From a virus, in IMG/VR virus record IMGVR_UViG_3300017971_000297, positions 1-63,645 of that record: a stretch of 63,645 nucleotides of DNA, one strand, 5' to 3'. Below are positions 22,744 through 58,002 of this stretch, piece after piece (positions within the stretch are counted from its first letter, which is position 1; each line of letters opens with the position of its first letter). The notes beneath the pieces are model-generated. The model worked only from the letters and a program-made list of their open reading frames with translations, searched no databases and had not been told where the DNA came from. The position numbers and the translations under genes were made by a program.

Positions 22744-23025
22744 ATGAAATTTTATAGAAACATTTCTGGGAGTATGCTTCCTCTAGACTGTCTTAGGCAT
22801 GGCACGAGATATGTAATGCCTGGCGAGATAGTAGCTCTTCCCGACTCACGGGACGTAAGACACAACGCCAGGCAAGGTAAATTGGTCCTTGTCAGGGGCA
22901 TGGTGGAGACTAAACCCAGGAAAAAGAAGAAAAAGTACAGGCCTAGGAAGAAGAAAACTCAGGTACTGGAAAAGAAATCTAAACCCAAAAAAGAGAAACA
23001 ATTAGAAAAAACGGAGAATGAATAA
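22744..23025 (+). CDS. Basic small protein before tail sheath
   Basis: 93 residues. The first 55 residues are a compact domain (LRHGTRYVMPGEIVALPDSRDV, GKLVLVRGMVE), possibly SH3-like. The rest is a Lys-rich tail (about half Lys/Arg). The stop overlaps the sheath start by one base. Function unknown; the layout of small domain plus Lys tail recurs in this genome. Confidence 0.5.
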   Translation: MKFYRNISGSMLPLDCLRHGTRYVMPGEIVALPDSRDVRHNARQGKLVLVRGMVETKPRKKKKKYRPRKKKTQVLEKKSKPKKEKQLEKTENE

Positions 23026-25607
23026 TGGCCATTAATACAAATACTGGTCCAGAAAGAGTTGAAGTCACTCCGGTAGCTACTGGTAGCATTCAGGTCCCTG
23101 GGGCACCTACTGCTATTACTGCTTTCGTCGTTCGATCTACACTTGCCGGTGCTCCTGCTGATACGCCCGTGGAGGCTTTGAGCCTTGAGGCCGTAGTGGA
23201 GCAGTTTGGCGATGTAGAGTTAGGCGATGCTTATTATGCTATTCGAGGCTTTTTCGCTAATGCAGGTACTGGCAATAAGGTCATTATCGTGAACGTTGCT
23301 CCGACTGCTTCCGGCACCACTGTGGATGATCGCGGTGTTGCAGAGGCGGCTGGCGCTGGTTTTGTTGAAGATGAGGGAGAGATTGTCACTAGTTTGGCGG
23401 TTTCTGGCTACACTGCAACTACTGGCGTGTTGGCGTTCAGTGGTAGTCCTGATCTTTCCGAAGTGAAAGTAGGGGATTACTTCAAAGATGATGATGGGCG
23501 TTTGTTCCAAATTACCGCTGTCAGTGATTCTGCTGATACAGTCACCATTGATACTGGTCTTTTTACGGTTGCCGGTGAGGAAGTTTTCTCAACTGGCGGT
23601 CTGAATATTACTTCTACGGCTGGCAAAATCTTGCGGCTATATGAAGTTGACGAGCATAATGGTAAAGCTCTGGTTCAAGAAGGGACTTCTAAGGGAGCAG
23701 TTACGGTTGACAGTTCTGTGTCAACTACAGTTGGTGCTTCTGCTGGTGGGTTCCTAAATATCGGTGCTAAAGTTGGTGATATCCTTGTAGATTCTGCTAG
23801 TGCAGTTTTCTATATTACTGCGGTTGTTGATGATGATCAAGTTACTGTGGATAGGGCTGGAGCGGCTCTGGGCGCAGCTACAATTTATACGGGCGTTGTG
23901 GAAATTATCCAGGACACCCTGAGAGCGGCTGGAAGTAATGCTTCCGTGGCTCCTCAGAATGCAGTTGCTTTCGAGAGTTCTGGTGCTGGTTTCGGTATCC
24001 TCCCGACGACTGTGGGTCCATGGCCTGCGGACGCTCTAGATGGACACTTTGCCCTTATCGGCGGAGAAGAGAAACAAATTCTTACCTCGGCTGTTGTGGC
24101 AAGCGGTACCGTGAATGCAACTTTTGGTACCTCGGCCAATACCCTGGTTTATACGGCTGCTACAGGCGTTATCCAGTTCGGTGGGGCTGAGGATCTTTCA
24201 ACTGTCAACCCTGGCGATGTTTGGAGAGACGCTGGTGGAACAGATTTCGTTATCAGTAAAGTTGATGACGGAGCTGATCAAATTGTTATTGCTCCTAACC
24301 AAACAGTCAATACGGCAGTTGGCTCTACTATCCGAGATGGACAGGTAAGGGTTAATTTCGTAGATACTACGTTTATTCCTGGTACTACGAATGTTCCTAC
24401 CTTCTTTGAGCCTGCCAGTAAGCTGGAAATTCCCTCAGATGCAGTTGGCTTAGCCGACGATTATTTCGTTGCTGACGCTGTGTCTCAGGATTCCGATTAT
24501 CTTGGTGACTCTGCGGATGGTAAAGGACTTCATGCTCTGGATGACGTTGATGATGTAAACCTGGTGACTATTCCAGGCGTTACTTCTCGCGTGGTTCAGA
24601 ACGGTTTGATCGACTATTGTGAGACTTTTAGGGATGACTGCTTTGCTCTGTTGACCGTTCCTCAAGCTGTTCGCTATGCGGCAGTTGATCGGACTTTAGT
24701 CAATGTGGTAATCAGCTCTATTGTAAATGGGGCAGTTTATAGCACAGTTACCCTGTCTGGCAACCCAAGTCTTGCCAGTGTTTCCGAGGGCGATCTGTTA
24801 AGCTTTAATAGTGCTAAGTATCTAATCGTTGATGTGGATGATACTGACAAAAAATTGACAGTGGAATCAACCTCAATTAGTGGTTCTGGTGCGGCTGTAG
24901 TGGTTGCTCCTAGTGCCATTTCTTACAAAGAGACTATTATCAATAATCCCAGTAAGAGAGCTGCTTGGTATTTTAACTATGTTAAGGTTCTGCGTTCGTC
25001 TGATAGCGCAGTCTTGACAGTTGATCCTATCGGCCATGTGGCTGGTGTTATGGCTCGTATCGACGGTCAGATTTCTCTGGGTGGCGTGAGTCATGCTCCT
25101 GCGGGTATTGGTCCGGCTGGATTGGCCGACACAGTTGGTTTGGATCTCAGTATATCTGAGCGTACTGAAGCAGGTCCTCTGCGGCTTAACTTCATTAACC
25201 GGATTACGGAGTTTCCTGGCGCTGGTCGAGTTATCTTTGGACCGTACACGGCGGATAGCGGTACTTCCCCAGCTTTTACGGCGGAGGAACAGCTCATTCA
25301 GGTACAAAGATCAATTCTATTTATTAAAAAATCCTTAGAGCCTGGTCTCAGGTCGTTTATCTTTGAGAACTATTCTCCTCTGACTCGTGTTCAGATTGAG
25401 AATGCTATCCTTTCGTTCTTAAGGAATAATTCGTATCTGTTCCCTGCTGGATTGCCCGAAAGTGCTCAATTTAAAGTGGTTAGTGTTGAGCCAACCGCTA
25501 CGCAGGAAGCCGTTGGGTTAATGAAATTCCGAGTTCAAGTGAATTTCAATACCCCGGTCAGGTTCATTGACATTGATCTGGAATTTCCGATTCCAGAGGC
25601 TGCATAA
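23025..25607 (+). CDS. Contractile tail sheath protein
   Basis: 860 residues. Rings of sheath surround the tube and contract to drive it through the envelope. The C-terminal part has the family hallmarks: SHAPAGIGPAGL (near 690), then a LIQVQRSILFIKKSLEPGLRSFIFE-type segment (about 755-780) and a terminal linking strand (RFIDIDLEF). Residues 30-95 are the N-terminal core. Between them are four copies of a small beta domain (about 130-185, 235-290, 378-435, 570-628), making it much longer than a typical 400-650 residue sheath. GC-rich, CGT-using codons fit high expression. Confidence 0.9.
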   Translation: MAINTNTGPERVEVTPVATGSIQVPGAPTAITAFVVRSTLAGAPADTPVEALSLEAVVEQFGDVELGDAYYAIRGFFANAGTGNKVIIVNVAPTASGTTVDDRGVAEAAGAGFVEDEGEIVTSLAVSGYTATTGVLAFSGSPDLSEVKVGDYFKDDDGRLFQITAVSDSADTVTIDTGLFTVAGEEVFSTGGLNITSTAGKILRLYEVDEHNGKALVQEGTSKGAVTVDSSVSTTVGASAGGFLNIGAKVGDILVDSASAVFYITAVVDDDQVTVDRAGAALGAATIYTGVVEIIQDTLRAAGSNASVAPQNAVAFESSGAGFGILPTTVGPWPADALDGHFALIGGEEKQILTSAVVASGTVNATFGTSANTLVYTAATGVIQFGGAEDLSTVNPGDVWRDAGGTDFVISKVDDGADQIVIAPNQTVNTAVGSTIRDGQVRVNFVDTTFIPGTTNVPTFFEPASKLEIPSDAVGLADDYFVADAVSQDSDYLGDSADGKGLHALDDVDDVNLVTIPGVTSRVVQNGLIDYCETFRDDCFALLTVPQAVRYAAVDRTLVNVVISSIVNGAVYSTVTLSGNPSLASVSEGDLLSFNSAKYLIVDVDDTDKKLTVESTSISGSGAAVVVAPSAISYKETIINNPSKRAAWYFNYVKVLRSSDSAVLTVDPIGHVAGVMARIDGQISLGGVSHAPAGIGPAGLADTVGLDLSISERTEAGPLRLNFINRITEFPGAGRVIFGPYTADSGTSPAFTAEEQLIQVQRSILFIKKSLEPGLRSFIFENYSPLTRVQIENAILSFLRNNSYLFPAGLPESAQFKVVSVEPTATQEAVGLMKFRVQVNFNTPVRFIDIDLEFPIPEAA

Positions 25608-25621
25608 GGAGATAGAAGACT

Positions 25622-26182
25622 ATGGCTAGAAGTTGTAAAGTAGACGCAATTGAAAAATTTCGCTTTACGGTTTCCTTTGATGGGCTAACCAGAGCGGGTT
25701 TTCATGAAGTCTCTGTCCCTAAGCAGACCACAACCAAAGGTGAATACAGAGAAGGCAATGCTCCGGAGAATATGCAGTTGTTCGCTGGTTTGCATCGGAT
25801 GGAAGACGTTGTGATGTCTCGTGGCGTCACGACTAATAAGAATTTCTATGACTGGGTAAAACTTGTTTTTGACCCTGAGAAAGTTCCTGAAGGTCAACCG
25901 AACGTGCAAGGTCCGGACGTTGTTCCTCTTGGTAATTCAGAGCTTTATCGCAGAGATATTACCATTACACTTTGGCAACGTAAAGGTGTTCCCGCCAAGC
26001 AGTGGATTCTCTATAATGCTTTTCCAGTAGCGTTTCAACCGGGTTCGGATATGAACGCTTCTGAGGACGGCGAGAAATCCATGGAGCAATTAACTGTGGG
26101 CTACGAGTCCTTTGTGGAACTTAGTGGTTCGGAGATTAAGGCTCCAGAGGCTGGTGAAGATCAGGATTCGCCTGTTACGTAA
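25622..26182 (+). CDS. Major tail tube protein (T4 gp19-like)
   Basis: 186 residues, ribosome site TAAGGAGATAG. Hexamers stack to make the inner tube. The start MARS-x3-DAIEKFRFTVSF, the strand GFHEVSVPKQTT, the segment RRDITITLWQRKG and the end LTVGYESFVELSG are typical of the gp19/CIS tube fold. Two paralogs follow at 27047 and 27742. This copy sits directly after sheath and shares its GC-rich, highly expressed codon use, so it is the main tube subunit. Confidence 0.88.
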   Translation: MARSCKVDAIEKFRFTVSFDGLTRAGFHEVSVPKQTTTKGEYREGNAPENMQLFAGLHRMEDVVMSRGVTTNKNFYDWVKLVFDPEKVPEGQPNVQGPDVVPLGNSELYRRDITITLWQRKGVPAKQWILYNAFPVAFQPGSDMNASEDGEKSMEQLTVGYESFVELSGSEIKAPEAGEDQDSPVT

Positions 26183-26289: not shown

Positions 26290-26475
26290 ATGGCTAAGAA
26301 GTGTACAGGACAGAAAAAAGTAAAAAAAGTTATGAAAGAGTGGAAAAAAGGTAAACTTCACTCTGGTTCGAAAAAAGGGCCAAAAGTGAATAGTCAAAAA
26401 CAGGCTATTGCTATAGCTCTAAGTGAGGCTGGATTATCTAAATCTAGTAAAAAAGGAAGAAAAAATAATGGCTAA
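26290..26475 (+). CDS. DUF6496-like Lys-rich microprotein
   Basis: 61 residues. The core GKLHSGSKKGPKV-x3-KQAIAIALSEAGLSK matches what I know as the DUF6496 family, small basic proteins common in phages and some bacteria, of unknown function. A helix (KQAIAIALSEAG) is flanked by basic segments, as in a nucleic-acid-binding peptide. First of four Lys-rich genes placed between tube paralogs. Its last codons overlap the next start. Confidence 0.7.
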   Translation: MAKKCTGQKKVKKVMKEWKKGKLHSGSKKGPKVNSQKQAIAIALSEAGLSKSSKKGRKNNG

Positions 26476-26662
26476 AAAGAAAAAGGGTAAATACATAGGA
26501 TTTGCTAAATTAGCCAAAAAAATTGGAGCAAAGGGAGATGTTAAAGATCCCAAGGCTGTTGCTGCTGCTATTGGGCGCAAAAAGTATGGTAAAAAAACTA
26601 TGCAAAAAGCTGCCGCAAAAGGAATTAAAGTTCCAAACTTAAAGAAAAAAAAGAAGAAATAA
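26468..26662 (+). CDS. Lys-rich microprotein
   Basis: 64 residues. Start ATG at 26468 overlaps the previous gene by eight bases; an upstream in-frame start would sit inside it. Sequence KYIGFAKLAKKIGAKGDVKD then AVAAAIGRKKYGKKTMQKAAAKG, about 40% Lys. The motif DPKAVAAAIGRKKYGK is seen in small phage/bacterial proteins of unknown role. Helix-turn-helix-like but very basic; could coat DNA. Confidence 0.65.
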   Translation: MAKKKKGKYIGFAKLAKKIGAKGDVKDPKAVAAAIGRKKYGKKTMQKAAAKGIKVPNLKKKKKK

Positions 26663-26664
26663 CT

Positions 26665-26898
26665 ATGGCTACTGCTTCGAAAAAGTATAAAGATCGTCTT
26701 AAGGGGGGCCTAGCGGATAAAAGTAAGCCCTCGGATTTTAATAGGAAACAACTATCTAAAGGTATCAAAGTAGAGTTAGAGCATACTAATGATAAAAAGA
26801 TTGCCAGAGAGATAGCTATGGATCACTTAAAGGAAGATTCTAAGTATTATACTAAGTTAGCAAAAATGGAAAAAAAGAAATCAGGGAGAAAGAAATAA
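26665..26898 (+). CDS. DUF5661-like microprotein
   Basis: 77 residues. GGLADKSKPSDF then QLSKGIKVELEHTND and REIAMDHLKEDSKYY match the pattern I know as DUF5661, a small family of unknown function found in phages and bacteria. It is helical with conserved Glu-His (ELEH) and Asp-His (MDHL) pairs. Ends in a basic tail (KKKSGRKK). Its stop overlaps the next ATG. Confidence 0.7.
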   Translation: MATASKKYKDRLKGGLADKSKPSDFNRKQLSKGIKVELEHTNDKKIAREIAMDHLKEDSKYYTKLAKMEKKKSGRKK

Positions 26899-27046: not shown

Positions 27047-27742
27047 ATGGCTCGCTCATCTAGTGTAGATGCCGTTGAAAGATTCAGATTCAACGTATAT
27101 GTGTTTAATATTGGGTTTGATCTGTCCAATATAGCTAAAAATTTCACGGGGTTCCTACGGGCAGGTTTTACAGAGGTTACTCTTCCCAGACAAACCACTG
27201 GGGTAATGGAGTACCGCGAGAATGTAGACCAAGCACATCCACAGTTAATCCCAGGTATAACTAGATTTGAGCCTATAGTTTTGAGGAGAGGAGTTACCTC
27301 TAGTTCCGATTTTTTTAGATGGGCTAAAGATACCCATAATCCCTCTAGCATAGTTTCTACTGCCATCCAACGGCTCAATGGAGATGCTTCCGCAGCTCCT
27401 CCCGCCCAAACAGCAGATTTTCGCAGAGACGTTCTTATTATAGTATATGGTAGAGGTGGTGGAGTACAGACTGAAGATCCAACAGGTATTAGTCAAAGAA
27501 TTACTGGAGTTGCTGGAGCAGCTTCATCCGCTTTTGGACTTAATGCGCTGGGAGACGTAAAAAAGGCATGGCTCCTTAGAGATGCGTGGGTATCCTCATA
27601 TAAACCTGGGGATGATTTATCTGCTACGGAAGATACAACTAAGCTTGTAGAAGAAATCGAGCTACGTTATGAATCTTTTGAAGAAATCTCTCTTGAAGCC
27701 CTTACTAGTCAAGCCCTATCACTTGGTACAGGTATCCTTTAA
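27047..27742 (+). CDS. Tail tube-fold protein, paralog 2
   Basis: 231 residues. MARS-x3-DAVERFRFNVYV, then GFTEVTLPRQTT and the ending IELRYESFEEISL match the 25622 tube protein across its length, with two insertions: one near residues 22-36 and one near 140-170. AT-rich codons (AGA for Arg) suggest low copy number. In T4-like and eCIS tails, extra tube-fold proteins start the tube on the baseplate or cap it; such a role is inferred here. Confidence 0.7.
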   Translation: MARSSSVDAVERFRFNVYVFNIGFDLSNIAKNFTGFLRAGFTEVTLPRQTTGVMEYRENVDQAHPQLIPGITRFEPIVLRRGVTSSSDFFRWAKDTHNPSSIVSTAIQRLNGDASAAPPAQTADFRRDVLIIVYGRGGGVQTEDPTGISQRITGVAGAASSAFGLNALGDVKKAWLLRDAWVSSYKPGDDLSATEDTTKLVEEIELRYESFEEISLEALTSQALSLGTGIL

Positions 27743-28284
27743 TGGCTAGAAGTAATAATGCAGATCCATTAGATAGATTTAGGTGGAAGGTATACATTGT
27801 GGCACCGGCTGGAACTCAGTTTGCCCGAGCAGGATTTACTACCTGTTCTAGCCCGGGGATAACCCTAGATTTCGCAGCTTATGCTGAAGGGGGAAGCCAC
27901 ATGGTCCCTAGAATGATCCACAATGGTGCTACCTTTAAGCCCATAACTCTTACTAGAGGAGTTATATCCCAAACTGGAGTAGATGATTTCTCTAAATGGT
28001 TAGAGGATGCGTTTAAGGCCCTAAATCCGGAACCGGGCTCTGCCCCAGTACAAAACTACCGACGAGATATAGTTTTAGAACATTTAGATAGGGATGGAGA
28101 TGTAGTTAAACGGTACACTATGAGAAATTGTGTTCCCACGGCTTACGAACCAGCCTCAGATTTCGGAGCAGACGACGAATCTGCTCTGAGTGTCGAGACT
28201 CTAACCTTCAATTATGAGGGATTTGAAGAAGAAACAGGGGGCGATTTAACCTCAGTTTTAGATAATCTTAGAGGCCTATTCTAA
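27742..28284 (+). CDS. Tail tube-fold protein, paralog 3
   Basis: 180 residues. MARS-x3-DPLDRFRWKVYI, RRDIVLEHLDRDG and the ending LTFNYEGFEEETG match the other two tube-fold proteins. More divergent in the middle (GFTTCSSPGITLDFAAYAEGG). Likely a minor tube adaptor at the baseplate or terminator end. One-base overlap with paralog 2, and followed by the assembly chaperone. Confidence 0.7.
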   Translation: MARSNNADPLDRFRWKVYIVAPAGTQFARAGFTTCSSPGITLDFAAYAEGGSHMVPRMIHNGATFKPITLTRGVISQTGVDDFSKWLEDAFKALNPEPGSAPVQNYRRDIVLEHLDRDGDVVKRYTMRNCVPTAYEPASDFGADDESALSVETLTFNYEGFEEETGGDLTSVLDNLRGLF

Positions 28285-28299
28285 TATCAAGGAGGAATT

Positions 28300-29040
28300 A
28301 TGATTATTGAATTACCCTGCGGCATCGTAAAAGATGGCGTGGTATACGACCATGTTCGGATTAAGGAACTTACCGGCAAACAGCAAAACTACTTAATGGA
28401 CTTTGATCTAGTGAGTGATACTCTGGGGCATATCCCCAAACTACTTACAGACCTTGCTGTTGAATACCAAACTAAAGATGGTAAAGTAGCCGATATTAAA
28501 CCAGAAGAGACTGTATGGCTGATTAGCACGGATGATATAGAAGTTATCCTTGTCAAGATTCGTCAGGCTACTTTTGGAAAAATGTTGGCCATGCAAGTCA
28601 CCTGCCCCCGTTGTGGGAAACAACAAACCGTTAGTTTGGATCTTTCTAAACTTAAAATTAAGAATCTGAAGGATAAAAAGAAAAGGTCTGTATCGCTTAC
28701 TCTTAAAAAGTCTAAGAAGAAAGTAGTCGTGAGGTTGTTGGGATTGCAGCAACTCTTTGATTTGAATGCTGCCATTAGAGAAGCCAATAAAGAGTTCTAT
28801 ACTACTACGGTGGCGCTCTCTTTGGAAGAGATAGACGGCAAAAGTCCAGTTAAACCAGAGGATATTGAAGATATTCCGTTAACCGACTTACAGCAAATTG
28901 ATAAGGCCTTTGATAAAATTAGAGGATCAATCGATAATAAAATAGAGCATGAATGTGATGCTTGTAAGTCTGAGTTTGATACCCCGCTCCCAGTTGTGGA
29001 ACCGGGTTTTTTCGCCCCGTCGCAGACCCTTTCAATATAA
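28300..29040 (+). CDS. Tail assembly chaperone, short form (zinc-binding, baseplate-type)
   Basis: 246 residues, ribosome site CAAGGAGGAATT. It has four cysteines in two CxxC pairs (Cys102/105 in CPRC, Cys219/222 in CDAC), like T4 baseplate/chaperone proteins (gp26/gp51-like family). It is directly upstream of the tape measure. Codons 237-238 form a U UUU UUC slippery heptamer, and a 68-codon open frame follows in the -1 frame. Thus this is very probably the short product of a lambda G/GT-type gene. The normal-frame end is APSQTLSI. Confidence 0.75.
   Translation: MIIELPCGIVKDGVVYDHVRIKELTGKQQNYLMDFDLVSDTLGHIPKLLTDLAVEYQTKDGKVADIKPEETVWLISTDDIEVILVKIRQATFGKMLAMQVTCPRCGKQQTVSLDLSKLKIKNLKDKKKRSVSLTLKKSKKKVVVRLLGLQQLFDLNAAIREANKEFYTTTVALSLEEIDGKSPVKPEDIEDIPLTDLQQIDKAFDKIRGSIDNKIEHECDACKSEFDTPLPVVEPGFFAPSQTLSI
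29007..29013 (+). promoter_or_regulatory. Programmed -1 ribosomal frameshift site (T TTT TTC)
   Basis: The heptamer T TTT TTC lies with TTT and TTC as zero-frame codons 237 and 238 of the chaperone. Both tRNAs can re-pair one base back (TTT and TTT), the standard X XXY YYZ rule. The -1 frame is then open to 29219, whereas the zero frame ends after eight more codons. I did not establish a downstream pseudoknot. Confidence 0.8.
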
Positions 29041-29219
29041 TACCCACCGAATATATAGATCATCGATCTGATTTGCTATGTGATTATGGGTATTTAGGTG
29101 AAACCTACAAATGGGGTCCGGATCAGATAGATGTACTTCCGTGGAGTTTTCGGAAGGAATTAATAGAAATAGATAAAACTGCTAGACAGGAAATGACACG
29201 AGATGGCAGGAGCGCATAG
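29013..29219 (+). CDS. Tail assembly chaperone, -1 frameshift extension
   Basis: After slipping at 29007-29013, 68 further codons (RPVADPFNIIPTEYIDH..., ...YKWGPDQIDVLPWSFRKEL...) are read to TAG 29217-29219, giving a 306-residue fusion. The extension has no good start of its own and ends 17 bases inside the tape measure gene, as lambda-type GT extensions do. The peptide is hydrophobic/aromatic and acidic, like domains that hold the tape measure during tail assembly. Confidence 0.75.
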   Translation, partial: RPVADPFNIIPTEYIDHRSDLLCDYGYLGETYKWGPDQIDVLPWSFRKELIEIDKTARQEMTRDGRSA

Positions 29220-31203
29220 CGTAACTATAGTTATTAGCGCCCACAATAGGGCCTCTAAACCAATTAGAGCTGTCCACAAGGACTTGAATAGGTTTCGTAC
29301 TGAAGTTGTACGTTTCAACCGAAATCTATTTACAGCTAGTGCTATTATAGCCACTTTTGCGGCTGGATTTAGGAGAGCCTTCAACCTTACGGGTGTGGGA
29401 GCCCAATTTGAGTTTGTACGACAACAGTTTTTACAAACATTTGGAGAAGGGTATTTGATGACTCTTAAGAAGGCTTCTAGATATACCATGGACGCAATGA
29501 CTACCATGCAATTAGCCGTTAAGAATCATGCTAGAGGTCTTAAGAAGTGGGAAACTGAGAAGATATTTACTCTATCTGTAGGTGCTGCAAAGATTCTAGG
29601 TACCTCCACTGCGAATGCAGCCAAGCAGATGTCTGCCGCTTTTACTAACCTAAGTGTCAAGGGCTTACAGACCTTCCTTGTTGCTCTAAATACCAATAAC
29701 CAGTTCTCTAACATGAATGTATTAATTCAGAAACTTACCAAGGGCTTAAATGCGGCTGGTAGGATGACGGAGAACTTTCGTAGAGTAGCCTTAGCAGAAC
29801 TATCCAAGACTCTCATGAGATTTGTAGATACTGGAGACAATGCTCTTCAAGTGATAATGATGACTAAGGCTAGTTTTCAAGATCTTAAATCGGTTATTGG
29901 TTCCTTTCTTGGCAGAGCCATAGCTCCTCTGGCTAAACAGATGGCTATGCTAAACTTTAGTATTTTTGCTAAGTTACTGCCTATTTTAGATGGTACAGAC
30001 TCTAAGATGCGTAGTCTTAGGAGTGGTATAGTAGCTCTAACGCAATCTATAGGAGGTTTAGTAGCCACTATTGGTGGTGTTGTGGGAGGTTGGTCCCTAC
30101 TTCGTCTCCTATCTGCTACTCTGGGTTTCAGATTATCCACATTCGCCGGTATTGTGGGTCTCCTAGCTGGAGCTTTTATGTCAGCCAAGGATAGTTCTAA
30201 AGGATGGATGGAGACTCTGGCTGATATAGGCGCTGAAATGAAGTTTTATTTTCAAGCCTTTATGACTTATAAGGACGGAGTATCTACCTTTTCTAGGGAC
30301 GTAGCAACCCGTATTGGGGGTATGAGCCAGGAGTCCCAAGAACGAATTCTGATGATAGCTAAGGCTCTAGTTCAGGCTAAAGAAATTATGTTAGGTTTCT
30401 TTCAAGGCCTAAAAGCAGTTATGACCTGGGTAGGTAAGGCAGCCACTACAGTAGTTGATTGGACTCTGAAAGTAGCCAAGTTTTTTGGTCTGATTGATGC
30501 CAAGCAATTTTCTGCTGGAAGAGGCAAGCTTCTACGTGGTGTGGGGATGGTAGCTGGAGGAGCTTTGGGCGTAGGTCTTTTGGGTAATCTAGTAGCTAAA
30601 GCCTTTGGACGGAATTTAAACGTATTTAAAGGAGGTCTTTTTGGAAAAAGAGGAAGTAGCCCTACAAGGCCGTTATTTGTAATCGATGTCGGGGGCAAAG
30701 GAGCTGGAGTTGCTGGCGGACTACTAGGTAAAATACCTGGAGCTGGTGGAAGTGTTCTTAAAGGATTAGGTATTGTGGGGGTTCTAGGAGCCCTAGGAGT
30801 AGCGGTCTATAAGCTTACTAGCTGGTTAGATAAAAAGTGGGGAATGAGTACCGCCATCGGAGAAGGATTGGCTAAAATAACCCATCGACCACAGCTAGAA
30901 GGACATGTAGGAGCTAAAAAACTAGAAAATATTCTCTCTGGAAAAGCTACCGTTAGTGGAAAAAGATTAGATATTTCTCAACTTACTGAGCAAACTAGAA
31001 AATCTTTAGAACTGAGAAGCCAGCAAATGAGTAAGGGGTTAGGTTCTATAGATATGAACTTACTTTATAAAATTATGGAAGATGGAGTAATTACTCAAAA
31101 AGAGGCTAATAGGCTTTTAGATAGTATTGATCATAAAATTAGACTAGACGCTTTTGAAGCAGCAAATACCAAACCTACCGCCGCAAACTTCTTAGGTAAA
31201 TAA
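29203..31203 (+). CDS. Tail tape measure protein
   Basis: 666 residues. It sets tail length and is ejected with DNA. The N-terminus is helical and basic, with hydrophobic segments rich in Gly/Ala/Leu at about 280-325 (GGLVATIGGVVGGWSLLRLL...) and about 440-545 (GVGMVAGGALGVGLLGNLVAKAF...), typical of tape measures. Position after the frameshifted chaperone and before the baseplate hub confirms the role. At about 1.5 angstrom per residue the tail would be near 100 nm (inference). It starts inside the -1 extension. Confidence 0.85.
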   Translation: MAGAHSVTIVISAHNRASKPIRAVHKDLNRFRTEVVRFNRNLFTASAIIATFAAGFRRAFNLTGVGAQFEFVRQQFLQTFGEGYLMTLKKASRYTMDAMTTMQLAVKNHARGLKKWETEKIFTLSVGAAKILGTSTANAAKQMSAAFTNLSVKGLQTFLVALNTNNQFSNMNVLIQKLTKGLNAAGRMTENFRRVALAELSKTLMRFVDTGDNALQVIMMTKASFQDLKSVIGSFLGRAIAPLAKQMAMLNFSIFAKLLPILDGTDSKMRSLRSGIVALTQSIGGLVATIGGVVGGWSLLRLLSATLGFRLSTFAGIVGLLAGAFMSAKDSSKGWMETLADIGAEMKFYFQAFMTYKDGVSTFSRDVATRIGGMSQESQERILMIAKALVQAKEIMLGFFQGLKAVMTWVGKAATTVVDWTLKVAKFFGLIDAKQFSAGRGKLLRGVGMVAGGALGVGLLGNLVAKAFGRNLNVFKGGLFGKRGSSPTRPLFVIDVGGKGAGVAGGLLGKIPGAGGSVLKGLGIVGVLGALGVAVYKLTSWLDKKWGMSTAIGEGLAKITHRPQLEGHVGAKKLENILSGKATVSGKRLDISQLTEQTRKSLELRSQQMSKGLGSIDMNLLYKIMEDGVITQKEANRLLDSIDHKIRLDAFEAANTKPTAANFLGK

Positions 31204-54411: not shown

Positions 54412-54911
54412 TTAAGTATCCGAATATACTTGGTAAGACACTGAGCCTTTACTTCCTCAAAATTTAACTGAAACTCTAGAAAGAATCCTAGAGGCCCTAT
54501 CCTATGGATAGCTTTGTCCCCAAGTGTGTGATGTTCAGGGCACAGCGGAATGGCAGAATAATCTGATCCCTTAGTGCCCATGCCCCCAATTTCCAGATGG
54601 TGCGGGTGGCAGCCATATTTACCACAAGCGCAACAAGGAAGGGATCTAATTAAGTTAAGGTAGTCCTTATCTTGCTCTTTAGCCTTCTGACGTGGCTTGT
54701 AAGACCTGGACTCACCTATATCAACGTCTTTTTGTTTAGGAAGAAACCGTTTAAAATCAAAAGATTGATTATCTTCCTCAGGTTGCTCTATCACCTCATT
54801 TCTATGAGCCGCAAAACAGGAGAAACTACAAAAGTAATTCAACCCATGTCTGAAGACTTTACTGGTCCCTATAGCTTGCCCACACTGTTTACATCTAACT
54901 TTGAGGCCCAT
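54396..54911 (-). CDS. Ref-like RecA-dependent HNH nuclease (candidate)
   Basis: 171 residues. The N-terminus has a zinc-finger-like set (Cys7, Cys10, Cys28, Cys32). The C-terminal half carries [14 protein letters not shown]...[20 protein letters not shown], an HNH-type signature (His104-His105, Cys124, His127-His128) matching P1 Ref/RecA-dependent nuclease family and DUF968-like proteins. Ref needs RecA filaments to cut DNA; here recA is the gene directly upstream, overlapping by 17 bases, which supports the same partnership. Partner action is inferred from context. Confidence 0.75.
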
Positions 54912-57900
54912 TTAACTCCTCCGTCACTTGATGCAACCACTCCTCGTTGTTGGCGAGAGTTTCACAAGCGTTATTTCTACCTTGTCCCAGCTTCTCTCCC
55001 TTGTAGGAATACCAAGCTCCAGCCTTGTCAATAATTTTTTTAGTGACGGCTAAATCAAAAATATCACCTACTATATCTACTCCCTTACCATACAGGAGAT
55101 TAAAGGTGGCCTTCACGCCGGGGGCAGATAATTTATTCTTCTTAACCGTTACTTTCATTTCATGTCCGATGATCTCTTCTCCTTTTTTAAGTTTTTGACC
55201 TGAACGAATATCTAAACGTAAAGAGGCATAATACTTTAAAGCATTACCTCCAGTGGTGGTTTCTGGACTATTGTGTACTAATACCTTATCTACTAAATAG
55301 TTTGAGTTATCTTCCACTTGTAAATCATATTTATAAAGAGATCTTGTCATAGGTTTTTCATACTTATCTAATACATAGGATTCTATCAAAATAGGAGTTT
55401 TGTCTCCTTGGGGTATTTCTGCTAATGTTCCCATAATACTATGTAGCTTAGGATGTATCTTATAGGACATACACTTAGGTAGATAAGGAGCAATATTTCT
55501 CTGAAACTCAAAAGAATCTTTAGATAAGTTATAAAACAAACCCTTTCCTTCTTTAATTGCAGGAATAGGTAGGTTTAATTTTGAAAATATTTGCTGTATT
55601 TTGGCTAAATCTCTCAAAGGCAATAACTTAGCGGAGATAGAACATTTCCCCTTTCCCCACTTTTTATAGTTCCCATTAAATGTTCCATCGTCTGCATACC
55701 AAATGGCAACAGCTCTTTTGGAAAGATTGGAAAGTATCTTGGGGTTAAGATTAATTAGTCCTTTTGACTTTATATTTTTAAGCCACATAAGTTCTGAAGT
55801 GTAGAAGCTTTCAAACCAGAATTGCCCCTTTGCGTTAAATCCGCTGGAAGCTATAAAATTTTCTAATTGCCTTTTCTTCCATTGACAATACTCATTCTGT
55901 TTAATGGAGTGTGTTTCTCTAAATCGTCCAGTTAATTCTTTAAATTTTATAGAGCCATCTCCTAAATAGGAACCCAGTAGAAGTTCTTCTTGAGCTGGAG
56001 ACAAATATTTTGTACTATATACATATACAGAATCTCCTTTATGCAAGGTAGAGGCTTTACGTTCGCCATTAGGAGTAAGAATTACATGATCATCTCCTAT
56101 AGGCAGATTAGATTTCCCTCCATCATGTGGATTTCTTACAACTAATTGAAAAAATTTATTAGCTTTACCATTATTAAAATAATTTATAATTTTTTTTGGA
56201 ACTAACCTATTAGTTTTAGGATCATAAGACATTACTTTTACTGGTAGTTTTTGGTTTACTATTTTGCCTATTTTTTCAGTGGTGCCATTTTCTAATAGCA
56301 CTCTAGCGTTATAATGAAAACAGCCAAACATTACCCCTATTTTCATACGTAGTTGATTAATCCAAATAAGAGAAGTATTAGTTTCCGCTAAAATAGGAGT
56401 AATTTTTCTACAAGCTTGGGACATTAGTCGAGCGGTTAACCCTATATGAGAAGACCCCATGTCCCCATCTACTTCCGCTTGTGGAACCAGAGCAGCAATA
56501 GAATCTAGAACAATCACACTTACTTTACCACTCTTAGCTAAATATTCAATTAGATTTAAGGCTTTTTCAGCGGTGTCAGGCTGAGAAATAAGTAGCTCAT
56601 CTACTTTTACTCCTAAAATTTTAGCTAATCCTAAATCTAAGGAATGTTCTGTGTCAATATAGGCCACAGTTCCCCCCAGTTGTTGGGCTTGAGTAGCCAT
56701 GTATAGTGCCAAAGTGGTTTTGCCGCAGTTGTGGGTAACAAGATAATTGTCTGTAATATACCACTGTGATGGGGAATCCAAAGTAAAACCATATACCATT
56801 TGAGGTTTCGCGGGCTCTATAGTAAATCCTTGATGAGTAACATTTGTTCGCTTGCGTTCTAAAAATAAACATTTTTTCCTTTTTAAGGCAAGAGGAATTT
56901 CTCTATTTAGACTTATATAAAGTCTATAACTAGGAAAAGTTGTGTTTCCTTTATTATAAGAAGTCTGACGTAATGTAATTTTGGCGTATCCTCCCAGACT
57001 GTGTACTATGAACTTTACATCTTCCGCTAATTGGGGAGAGGTTGTAGCATATTCATAGGCATTATTGTTAGATCTACTTCCATCCGTGTCTAGTAATCCC
57101 GCCAACATTTGTAAACGGTAATTAAAGCTGCTATATTTAGCTTGCTTGGGTATATATTTCTCAAAACTATTTTTACGTAGTATTCCCAACTCTTGAAAAT
57201 GATGATGGTACTTACTTTTTTTACTTAGTCTAAGAGTAAGGGCGTTGGCATTTCTCTGATCTACCGTTGCTTCGGAAGTAAATTGGGTTCCAAGTTTAAC
57301 TAATTTATTTACCAAAGAAGGATCTTGAGAATTTGTATGAAAAGTAATATTTCCCCCATCTTTAGGAAATGACCCGTCTCCTAAAAAAGCTCCAAGGACG
57401 TAGCCCGGAATATCTGGGTCTTTACCATATCCCTCGAAGGTCTTAATTACAGGAGAAGTGAAAAGATGACTGTCATTTATAAACTGTTTTGTAGAAAAAG
57501 ATATGTTTTTCGCGGTCATTTCTTTGAGAGTCTTAAAATAAGCAGATTGCTTAGTTTTTGGAATTTTGCGTGCCTCTATATGTGTTAATGGTATTATATG
57601 ACTATGAGAACACTCGTATAATAATTCCCCATTTCGTCTAGATAATAATCTATAGTTTTCTTTACTATAGTAAGAAGTAGTATGGACTACGGTAGAAAAT
57701 AAACTCTCCCCATTCTTTTGTGGGGAGAGTACCCTATCGCCAACTTTAATGTTTTCTACATTTTTCCACGTGCCATTGGACATCATAACTTTTGAACCTG
57801 CTGGTTGACAGGATTCTGGACCAAATAATTCAATCATCCTTCCTCGCGGAATACCTCCAATACCCAAAGCCTTGTCTAATGATAAAATACCTGTGGGAAT

Positions 57901-58002
57901 AACGTCTATATCAGTACGTCCTTCTTCATCATATAAAAGGACAGAACCTTCCCCAAAATGCTTATTGGCAGCCTTCTGTAATTCTTTTAATTCTTTACTC
58001 AT
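54895..58002 (-). CDS. recA: RecA recombinase interrupted by two inteins
   Basis: 1035 residues as translated; 323 after removing inteins at residues 65-425 and 561-911. RecA coats single-stranded DNA and drives strand exchange. The exteins read [14 protein letters not shown] at the Walker A loop and [27 protein letters not shown] at the L2-loop start. They also keep [10 protein letters not shown] (Walker B, 496-505) and KISxK-like features. The first extein residue after intein 1 is Cys instead of the usual Ser, as splicing needs. Both inteins interrupt functional sites, so splicing must occur for activity. Overlaps the Ref-like gene downstream. Confidence 0.95.
55270..56322 (-). mobile_element. 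Intein 2 in RecA (at the L2-loop site), with LAGLIDADG endonuclease
   Basis: Residues 561-911 (351 aa). Starts with Cys ([13 protein letters not shown]) and ends [10 protein letters not shown] before the +1 Ser. Splicing block B-like [11 protein letters not shown] is at about 636-646. The two endonuclease motifs are [11 protein letters not shown] (674-684) and [10 protein letters not shown] (766-775). All splicing residues are intact. The insertion point, after GVMFG, is as I recall the site used by the Mycobacterium leprae RecA intein. Confidence 0.92.
56728..57810 (-). mobile_element. Intein 1 in RecA (in the Walker A loop), with LAGLIDADG endonuclease
   Basis: Residues 65-425 (361 aa). 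Starts [15 protein letters not shown], has block B-like [12 protein letters not shown] (about 128-139), endonuclease motifs LGAFLGDGS (203-211) and [10 protein letters not shown] (300-309), and ends [21 protein letters not shown] before the +1 Cys. A full, apparently active splicing and homing element placed inside the ATP-binding loop. It is AT-rich compared with the extein. Confidence 0.92.

Follow-up and report, generated by a model that had tools for sequence, protein, structure and literature searches.

A probable −1 ribosomal frameshift in the gp26-type tail assembly chaperone gene of an uncultured myophage

In phage lambda, ribosomes that shift by −1 late in the gene lying between those for tube and tape measure produce gpGT, a rare long form of gpG. 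A 2016 review (PMC5009743) describes this G/GT frameshifting as widely conserved among long-tailed phages 'except T4', and cites Xu et al. 2004 for the general case in dsDNA phages. Does a T4-type chaperone gene found at what is presumably the same place in an uncultured myophage also encode two proteins? We studied this question in a stretch of 63,645 nucleotides (hereafter the window), which is the IMG/VR virus record IMGVR_UViG_3300017971_000297, and in relatives retrieved by scans of IMG/VR. The initial annotation had proposed a lambda-like −1 frameshift in a T4-type zinc chaperone. The slippery heptamer, the −1 frame, the selection acting on it, the gene order and the assignment to PF12322 all support this proposal.

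The gene neighbourhood is that of a tail module (table 1). The presence of a tail sheath gene and of gp19-type tube genes implies a contractile tail. The gene that directly follows the chaperone and precedes the baseplate genes presumably encodes the tape measure, a label given only by its position and length: it has no Pfam match over the cut-off, and its PHROG match is sub-threshold. The two PF06841 tube-like genes stand in tandem, and a third gene (25622–26182) looks similar by eye. Three small and very lysine-rich ORFs lie between the tube-like genes (26290–26898).

Table 1. Features of the tail chaperone locus and its neighbourhood in the window.
Feature	Coordinates	Strand	Basis or remark
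Tail sheath protein	23025..25607	+	PHROG 23 'tail sheath', E = 8.3e-18
Tube-like gp19-type gene	27047..27742		PF06841
Tail tube protein, gp19-type, directly upstream of the chaperone	27742..28284	+	PF06841, E = 3.4e-20; PHROG 4542, 1.1e-21
Zero-frame tail assembly chaperone, short form, 246 aa	28300..29040	+	PF12322, PHROG 150
Slippery heptamer T TTT TTC, putative shift site	29007..29013	+	In phase; kept in relatives
−1 frame extension (putative long form, GT-like), 68 codons + TAG	29013..29219	+	Homologous −1 frame in relatives
Presumed tape measure gene, 666 aa, begins inside the extension	29203..31203	+	Position, length

The short form matches the family PF12322 (T4_baseplate) over residues 19–225 (E = 1.9e-14, 54.3 bits for a cut-off of 24.5) and PHROG 150 ('baseplate hub', gp26-type, E 7e-14). 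Its top matches in BFVD are T4-like baseplate hub assembly proteins (E down to 3.7e-16). As annotated initially, it has two CxxC pairs, C102–C105 and C219–C222; the four cysteines are invariant in seven IMG/VR sequences and are also found in the Streptomyces group described below. We assign the protein to the gp26-type (PF12322) zinc chaperones, zinc being predicted from the CxxC pairs. This assignment makes it a tail assembly chaperone (TAC) of the G/GT type. The AlphaFold2 model of the short form has a mean pLDDT of 87.9, and that of the extension shows three helices (H17–32, H36–40 and H44–67; pLDDT 79.8). We found no sequence match to a solved structure. When the fold of the short form was compared with the PDB, HK97 tail assembly chaperone 2ob9 came first, and both chains are in the top five. 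With E 0.69 and 1.3 and TMt 0.47–0.52, the similarity is weak and at most hints at a tail assembly chaperone.

The chaperone gene starts with ATG at 28300 and stops with TAA at 29038–29040. At the shift site its codons read GGT TTT TTC GCC, which confirms that the heptamer is in phase with the zero frame and has the form X XXY YYZ. The −1 frame from 29013 reads RPVADPFNIIPTEYIDHRSDLLCDYGYLGETYKWGPDQIDVLPWSFRKELIEIDKTARQEMTRDGRSA, and the annotated length of 68 codons is exact, with a TAG at 29217–29219. This end had been placed just inside the tape measure gene: the extension does run 17 nt beyond the ATG of the next gene, while the name of that gene has the basis given above. Within the extension there is a single TTG (29073), and the only ATG of the −1 frame lies at 29193; we found no Shine–Dalgarno sequence upstream of the TTG. 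Judging from these letters, the extension lacks a plausible start codon of its own, the ATG coming far too late. We found no conserved stimulatory RNA structure (pseudoknot or stem-loop) downstream of the site: the consensus fold of the alignment is weak, and local folds compared with shuffles gave z from −1.6 to +0.4 in most members, with only L014 reaching −3.5.

We then compared the window with six distinct relatives (L010, L012, L013, L014, L018 and L022), keeping apart L001, which is 100% identical over the chaperone locus. The nearest database relatives of this lineage are uncultured, and a scan of genome contigs found none in bacterial genomes. Identity to the window in the six is 83, 46, 46, 48, 48 and 35% for the zero-frame protein, and 84, 65, 60, 50, 53 and 34% for the amino acids of the extension. 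Hence, the −1 frame is conserved in all of them. The heptamer is in phase and at the same place throughout, as T TTT TTC in five of the six and as T TTT TTA in the most distant one, L022. Leaving L022 aside, the six Ts, the C and the following G are invariant in 6 aligned relatives. The preceding codon varies between GGT, GCT, AGT and CTT (Gly, Ala, Ser and Leu), but its final T is always kept. For the part of the extension that follows the zero-frame stop, the pairs for which dN/dS could be computed give 0.03–0.23 in the −1 frame; in the other two frames, interrupted by 6–11 stops, the ratio is about 0.7–4. For example, the window and L002 differ by 8, 3 and 16 changes at −1-frame codon positions 1, 2 and 3. 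These substitution patterns indicate strong purifying selection on the extension, in the −1 frame alone.

The gene order, the PF12322 assignment, and a heptamer and −1 frame that are both conserved, the latter under selection, lead us to read the gene as a TAC of the G/GT type. It very probably makes two forms of the chaperone by a −1 shift at T TTT TTC, and from the sequence −1 frameshifting is highly likely as the mechanism. Most ribosomes would read the zero frame to its end and so make the 246-aa zinc chaperone of the gp26 type. On TTT TTC, where tRNA-Phe fills both the P and the A site, a minority would slip back one base and continue for 68 codons in the −1 frame; the long form made in this way would have about 306 aa. 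The expected junction peptide of the fusion protein is ..VEPGFFRPVADPFNIIPTEYIDHR. If the two forms act like lambda gpG/gpGT, short forms would coat the tape measure protein. A few long forms would use their C-terminal helical domain to bring in tube subunits, and the tube would polymerise around the tape measure. In this scheme we infer the slippage itself, its rate and the binding partners of each form. By sequence, the window chaperone is a gp26-type zinc protein and not a gpG relative.

The initial annotation did not take a frameshift in such a chaperone to be common, but it is. An in-phase T TTT TTC or T TTT TTT, 0–9 nt before the zero-frame stop and followed by a −1 extension, is present in cyanophages S-SM2, P-HM2, S-PM2, P-SSM2 and C48C1, in Methylophilales phage Melnitz, Sinorhizobium phiN3, Caulobacter Cr30 and Stenotrophomonas YB07, and in Vibrio KVP40, PA5oct-type PAC2 and Agrobacterium Atu_ph07. 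We also collected 77 distinct cyanophage-type loci from IMG/VR without regard to the site, 46 of them below 80% ungapped identity. T TTT TTC stands exactly one codon before the stop in all 77, although codon usage, given Phe-Phe, predicts it in only 8.6% of such loci. The serine before the heptamer is encoded by AGT or TCT about equally. Cyanophage gp26/gp51 (S-SM2, P-SSM2, S-PM2) thus resembles the window in the in-phase heptamer and the −1 extension at the same position. It differs in that the zero-frame stop follows the site after one codon instead of eight, and in that the second CxxC pair, present in the window, is absent from the aligned sequences.

The comparison also bears on T4. The −1 extension of the cyanophages and of KVP40 is the product annotated as gp51 or 'baseplate hub assembly catalyst', and the KVP40 annotator recorded its likeness to the C-terminus of T4 gp51. 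T4 gp26 and gp51 both belong to PF12322, the long form being the short form plus a C-terminal piece. PHROG 634 is matched by the C-terminal half of T4 gp51 and by the −1 frames of KVP40 and S-SM2, and profile comparison supports this link (E = 2.6e-6). The shared PF12322 and PHROG 634 imply that T4 has divided between two genes the pair of products which frameshifting gives other phages. T4 has gp26 without and gp51 with the extension, on opposite strands, whereas the window phage, not a close T4 relative, has one gene and a shift. We did not find the split arrangement (two PF12322 genes, one with an in-frame extension) in the window record, possibly a genome fragment, which has a single PF12322 match and its extension out of frame. 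Direct homology of the window extension to PHROG 634/gp51 is not significant on its own: profile comparison of the window clade with the cyanophage gp51 extension gave E 0.24, and with the Streptomyces extension a weak E of 0.0013. Public annotation of these regions is irregular. Many cyanophage records, as well as loci L027 and L028–L036, carry 'gp51 / baseplate hub assembly catalyst' ORFs that resemble the −1 extension of gp26, often with an arbitrary start (e.g. a TTG start and 34 aa in C48C1). These cases suggest that the chaperone C-terminus is what many ORFs annotated as 'gp51' or 'hypothetical protein' after gene 26 encode.

These annotations bring up the alternative that survives best, namely that the −1 frame is a separate small gp51-like gene with its own or coupled initiation. 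The −1 piece is annotated as a gene of its own in several T4-type relatives, and an ATG in the −1 frame lies right at the zero-frame stop in KVP40 (TAATG), Cr30, YB07 and phiN3 (TGATG). The gp26-type gene of Vibrio phage D528 (L040, 2064–2264) has no canonical heptamer (TCA CTT TTC AAG TAATGG), and there a −1-frame ATG overlaps the stop; coupling may take the place of frameshifting in this phage. However, C48C1 lacks an early ATG as the window does, the in-phase heptamer is kept in the 77 cyanophage-type loci even where an ATG is present, and the T4 counterpart gp51 is a physical fusion. We consider a separate gene improbable, and for the window extension we rejected separate or coupled initiation because of the missing start codon. 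In some T4-type phages, re-initiation may act in addition to frameshifting.

The extension of gp26-type TACs does not always lie in the −1 frame. We observed it in the +1 frame in a large sister group that comprises Bacillus SP-15, Listeria LIS04, Streptococcus GXN1 and about 20 uncultured relatives, and also in Streptomyces BRock and its kin (loci L122–L153, L157–L161, L005–L008, L025, L037, L038 and L041). TTT followed by C occurs within the permitted overlap in 26 of 32 +1 loci, mostly as TTY TTT CGN, for a background of 0.2% of codons. The putative +1 site reads GAA TTT TTT CAC in SP-15 and CTG TTT CGC GAA CTC TAA in Streptomyces BRock. The +1 shift would result if tRNA-Phe in the P site moved from UUU to UUC. 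The Phe position of TTT|C is that of the −1 heptamer, and both groups have the motif TTTTTTCGY(C): the −1 group reads NNT TTT TTC GYC and would move into TTT TTT CGY, while the +1 group reads TTT TTT CGY and would move into TTC GYC. We lean towards the view that the direction of the shift changed during gp26-type evolution at one fixed codon position, the shared T6-CGY letting the zero and shifted frames swap roles. In the chaperone tree, the −1 clade of the window adjoins the Streptomyces +1 clade (SH-aLRT 86), and two direction changes are needed, one of them forced by well-supported branches. We therefore did not retain a single clade of all −1 lineages, although the AU test does not reject one origin of −1 (p = 0.25). 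Among the +1 loci, L141, L144, L146, L150, L153 and LIS04 lack the TTT|C site. The first four have TTA TTT AAT CCC AGT or TTC AAT CCC AGT near the zero-frame stop; perhaps CCC A is their shift site.

The run of six Ts could in principle let RNA polymerase slip, so that the extension would be reached by transcriptional slippage, and the use of the same Phe-Phe site for a +1 change in the sister lineages would be compatible with this. Yet throughout the −1 group the run keeps one codon phase, T TTT TTY. Slippage of tandem tRNAs depends on this phase, that of the polymerase does not, and the run is often broken in the +1 group (TTC TTT CGT). Transcriptional slippage is thus very unlikely. That an open −1 frame lies by chance behind a chance T run has a negligible probability: phage DNA is AT-rich and 24 window ORFs (12,030 codons) contain 42 in-phase X XXY YYZ sites with Y = A or T, four of them T TTT TTN, but only 0.17% of −1-frame positions in these ORFs are open for at least 68 codons, about 0.007 coincidences of site and open frame are expected, and both are kept down to 34% amino acid identity under selection confined to the −1 frame. 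Conservation in relatives is here a stronger argument than the chance estimate.

The window case joins T4-like TACs with poly-T slippery sites that are already known, and adds an uncultured myophage lineage to the phages with a frameshifted G/GT-type tail chaperone. Vladimirov, Gautam and Davidson 2022 (Virology 566:9–15), which we know through papers that cite it, identified T4-like TAC genes (PMC10885494, PMC12846349), and the article on phage Adele attributes to it the poly-T −1 signals of T4-like TAC-N genes (PMC12846349). The same article gives GTTTTT as the site of TAC frameshifting in Vandenendeviridae/Andersonviridae, unlike the T TTT TTC of the window. According to the PRFect article (PMC10885494), some T4-like phages do not frameshift but have two genes, one short and one long and fused. 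Our comparison agrees with the later view that T4 has merely split the two products into gp26 and gp51, and indicates that gp26-type zinc chaperones frameshift as a rule outside T4 proper. We did not find the contrast between −1 and +1 shifts at one site in the literature searched, which includes Vladimirov et al. 2022 as represented by its citing papers, and this contrast in gp26-type TACs is possibly new. It would offer a natural experiment on how readily programmed shifts can change direction.

Away from the tail genes, the window encodes a 1035-aa ORF on the minus strand (54895–58002) that has UvsX/RecA-like recombinase matches in separate pieces and a LAGLIDADG endonuclease profile. From this arrangement, one or more inteins probably interrupt a recombinase here.
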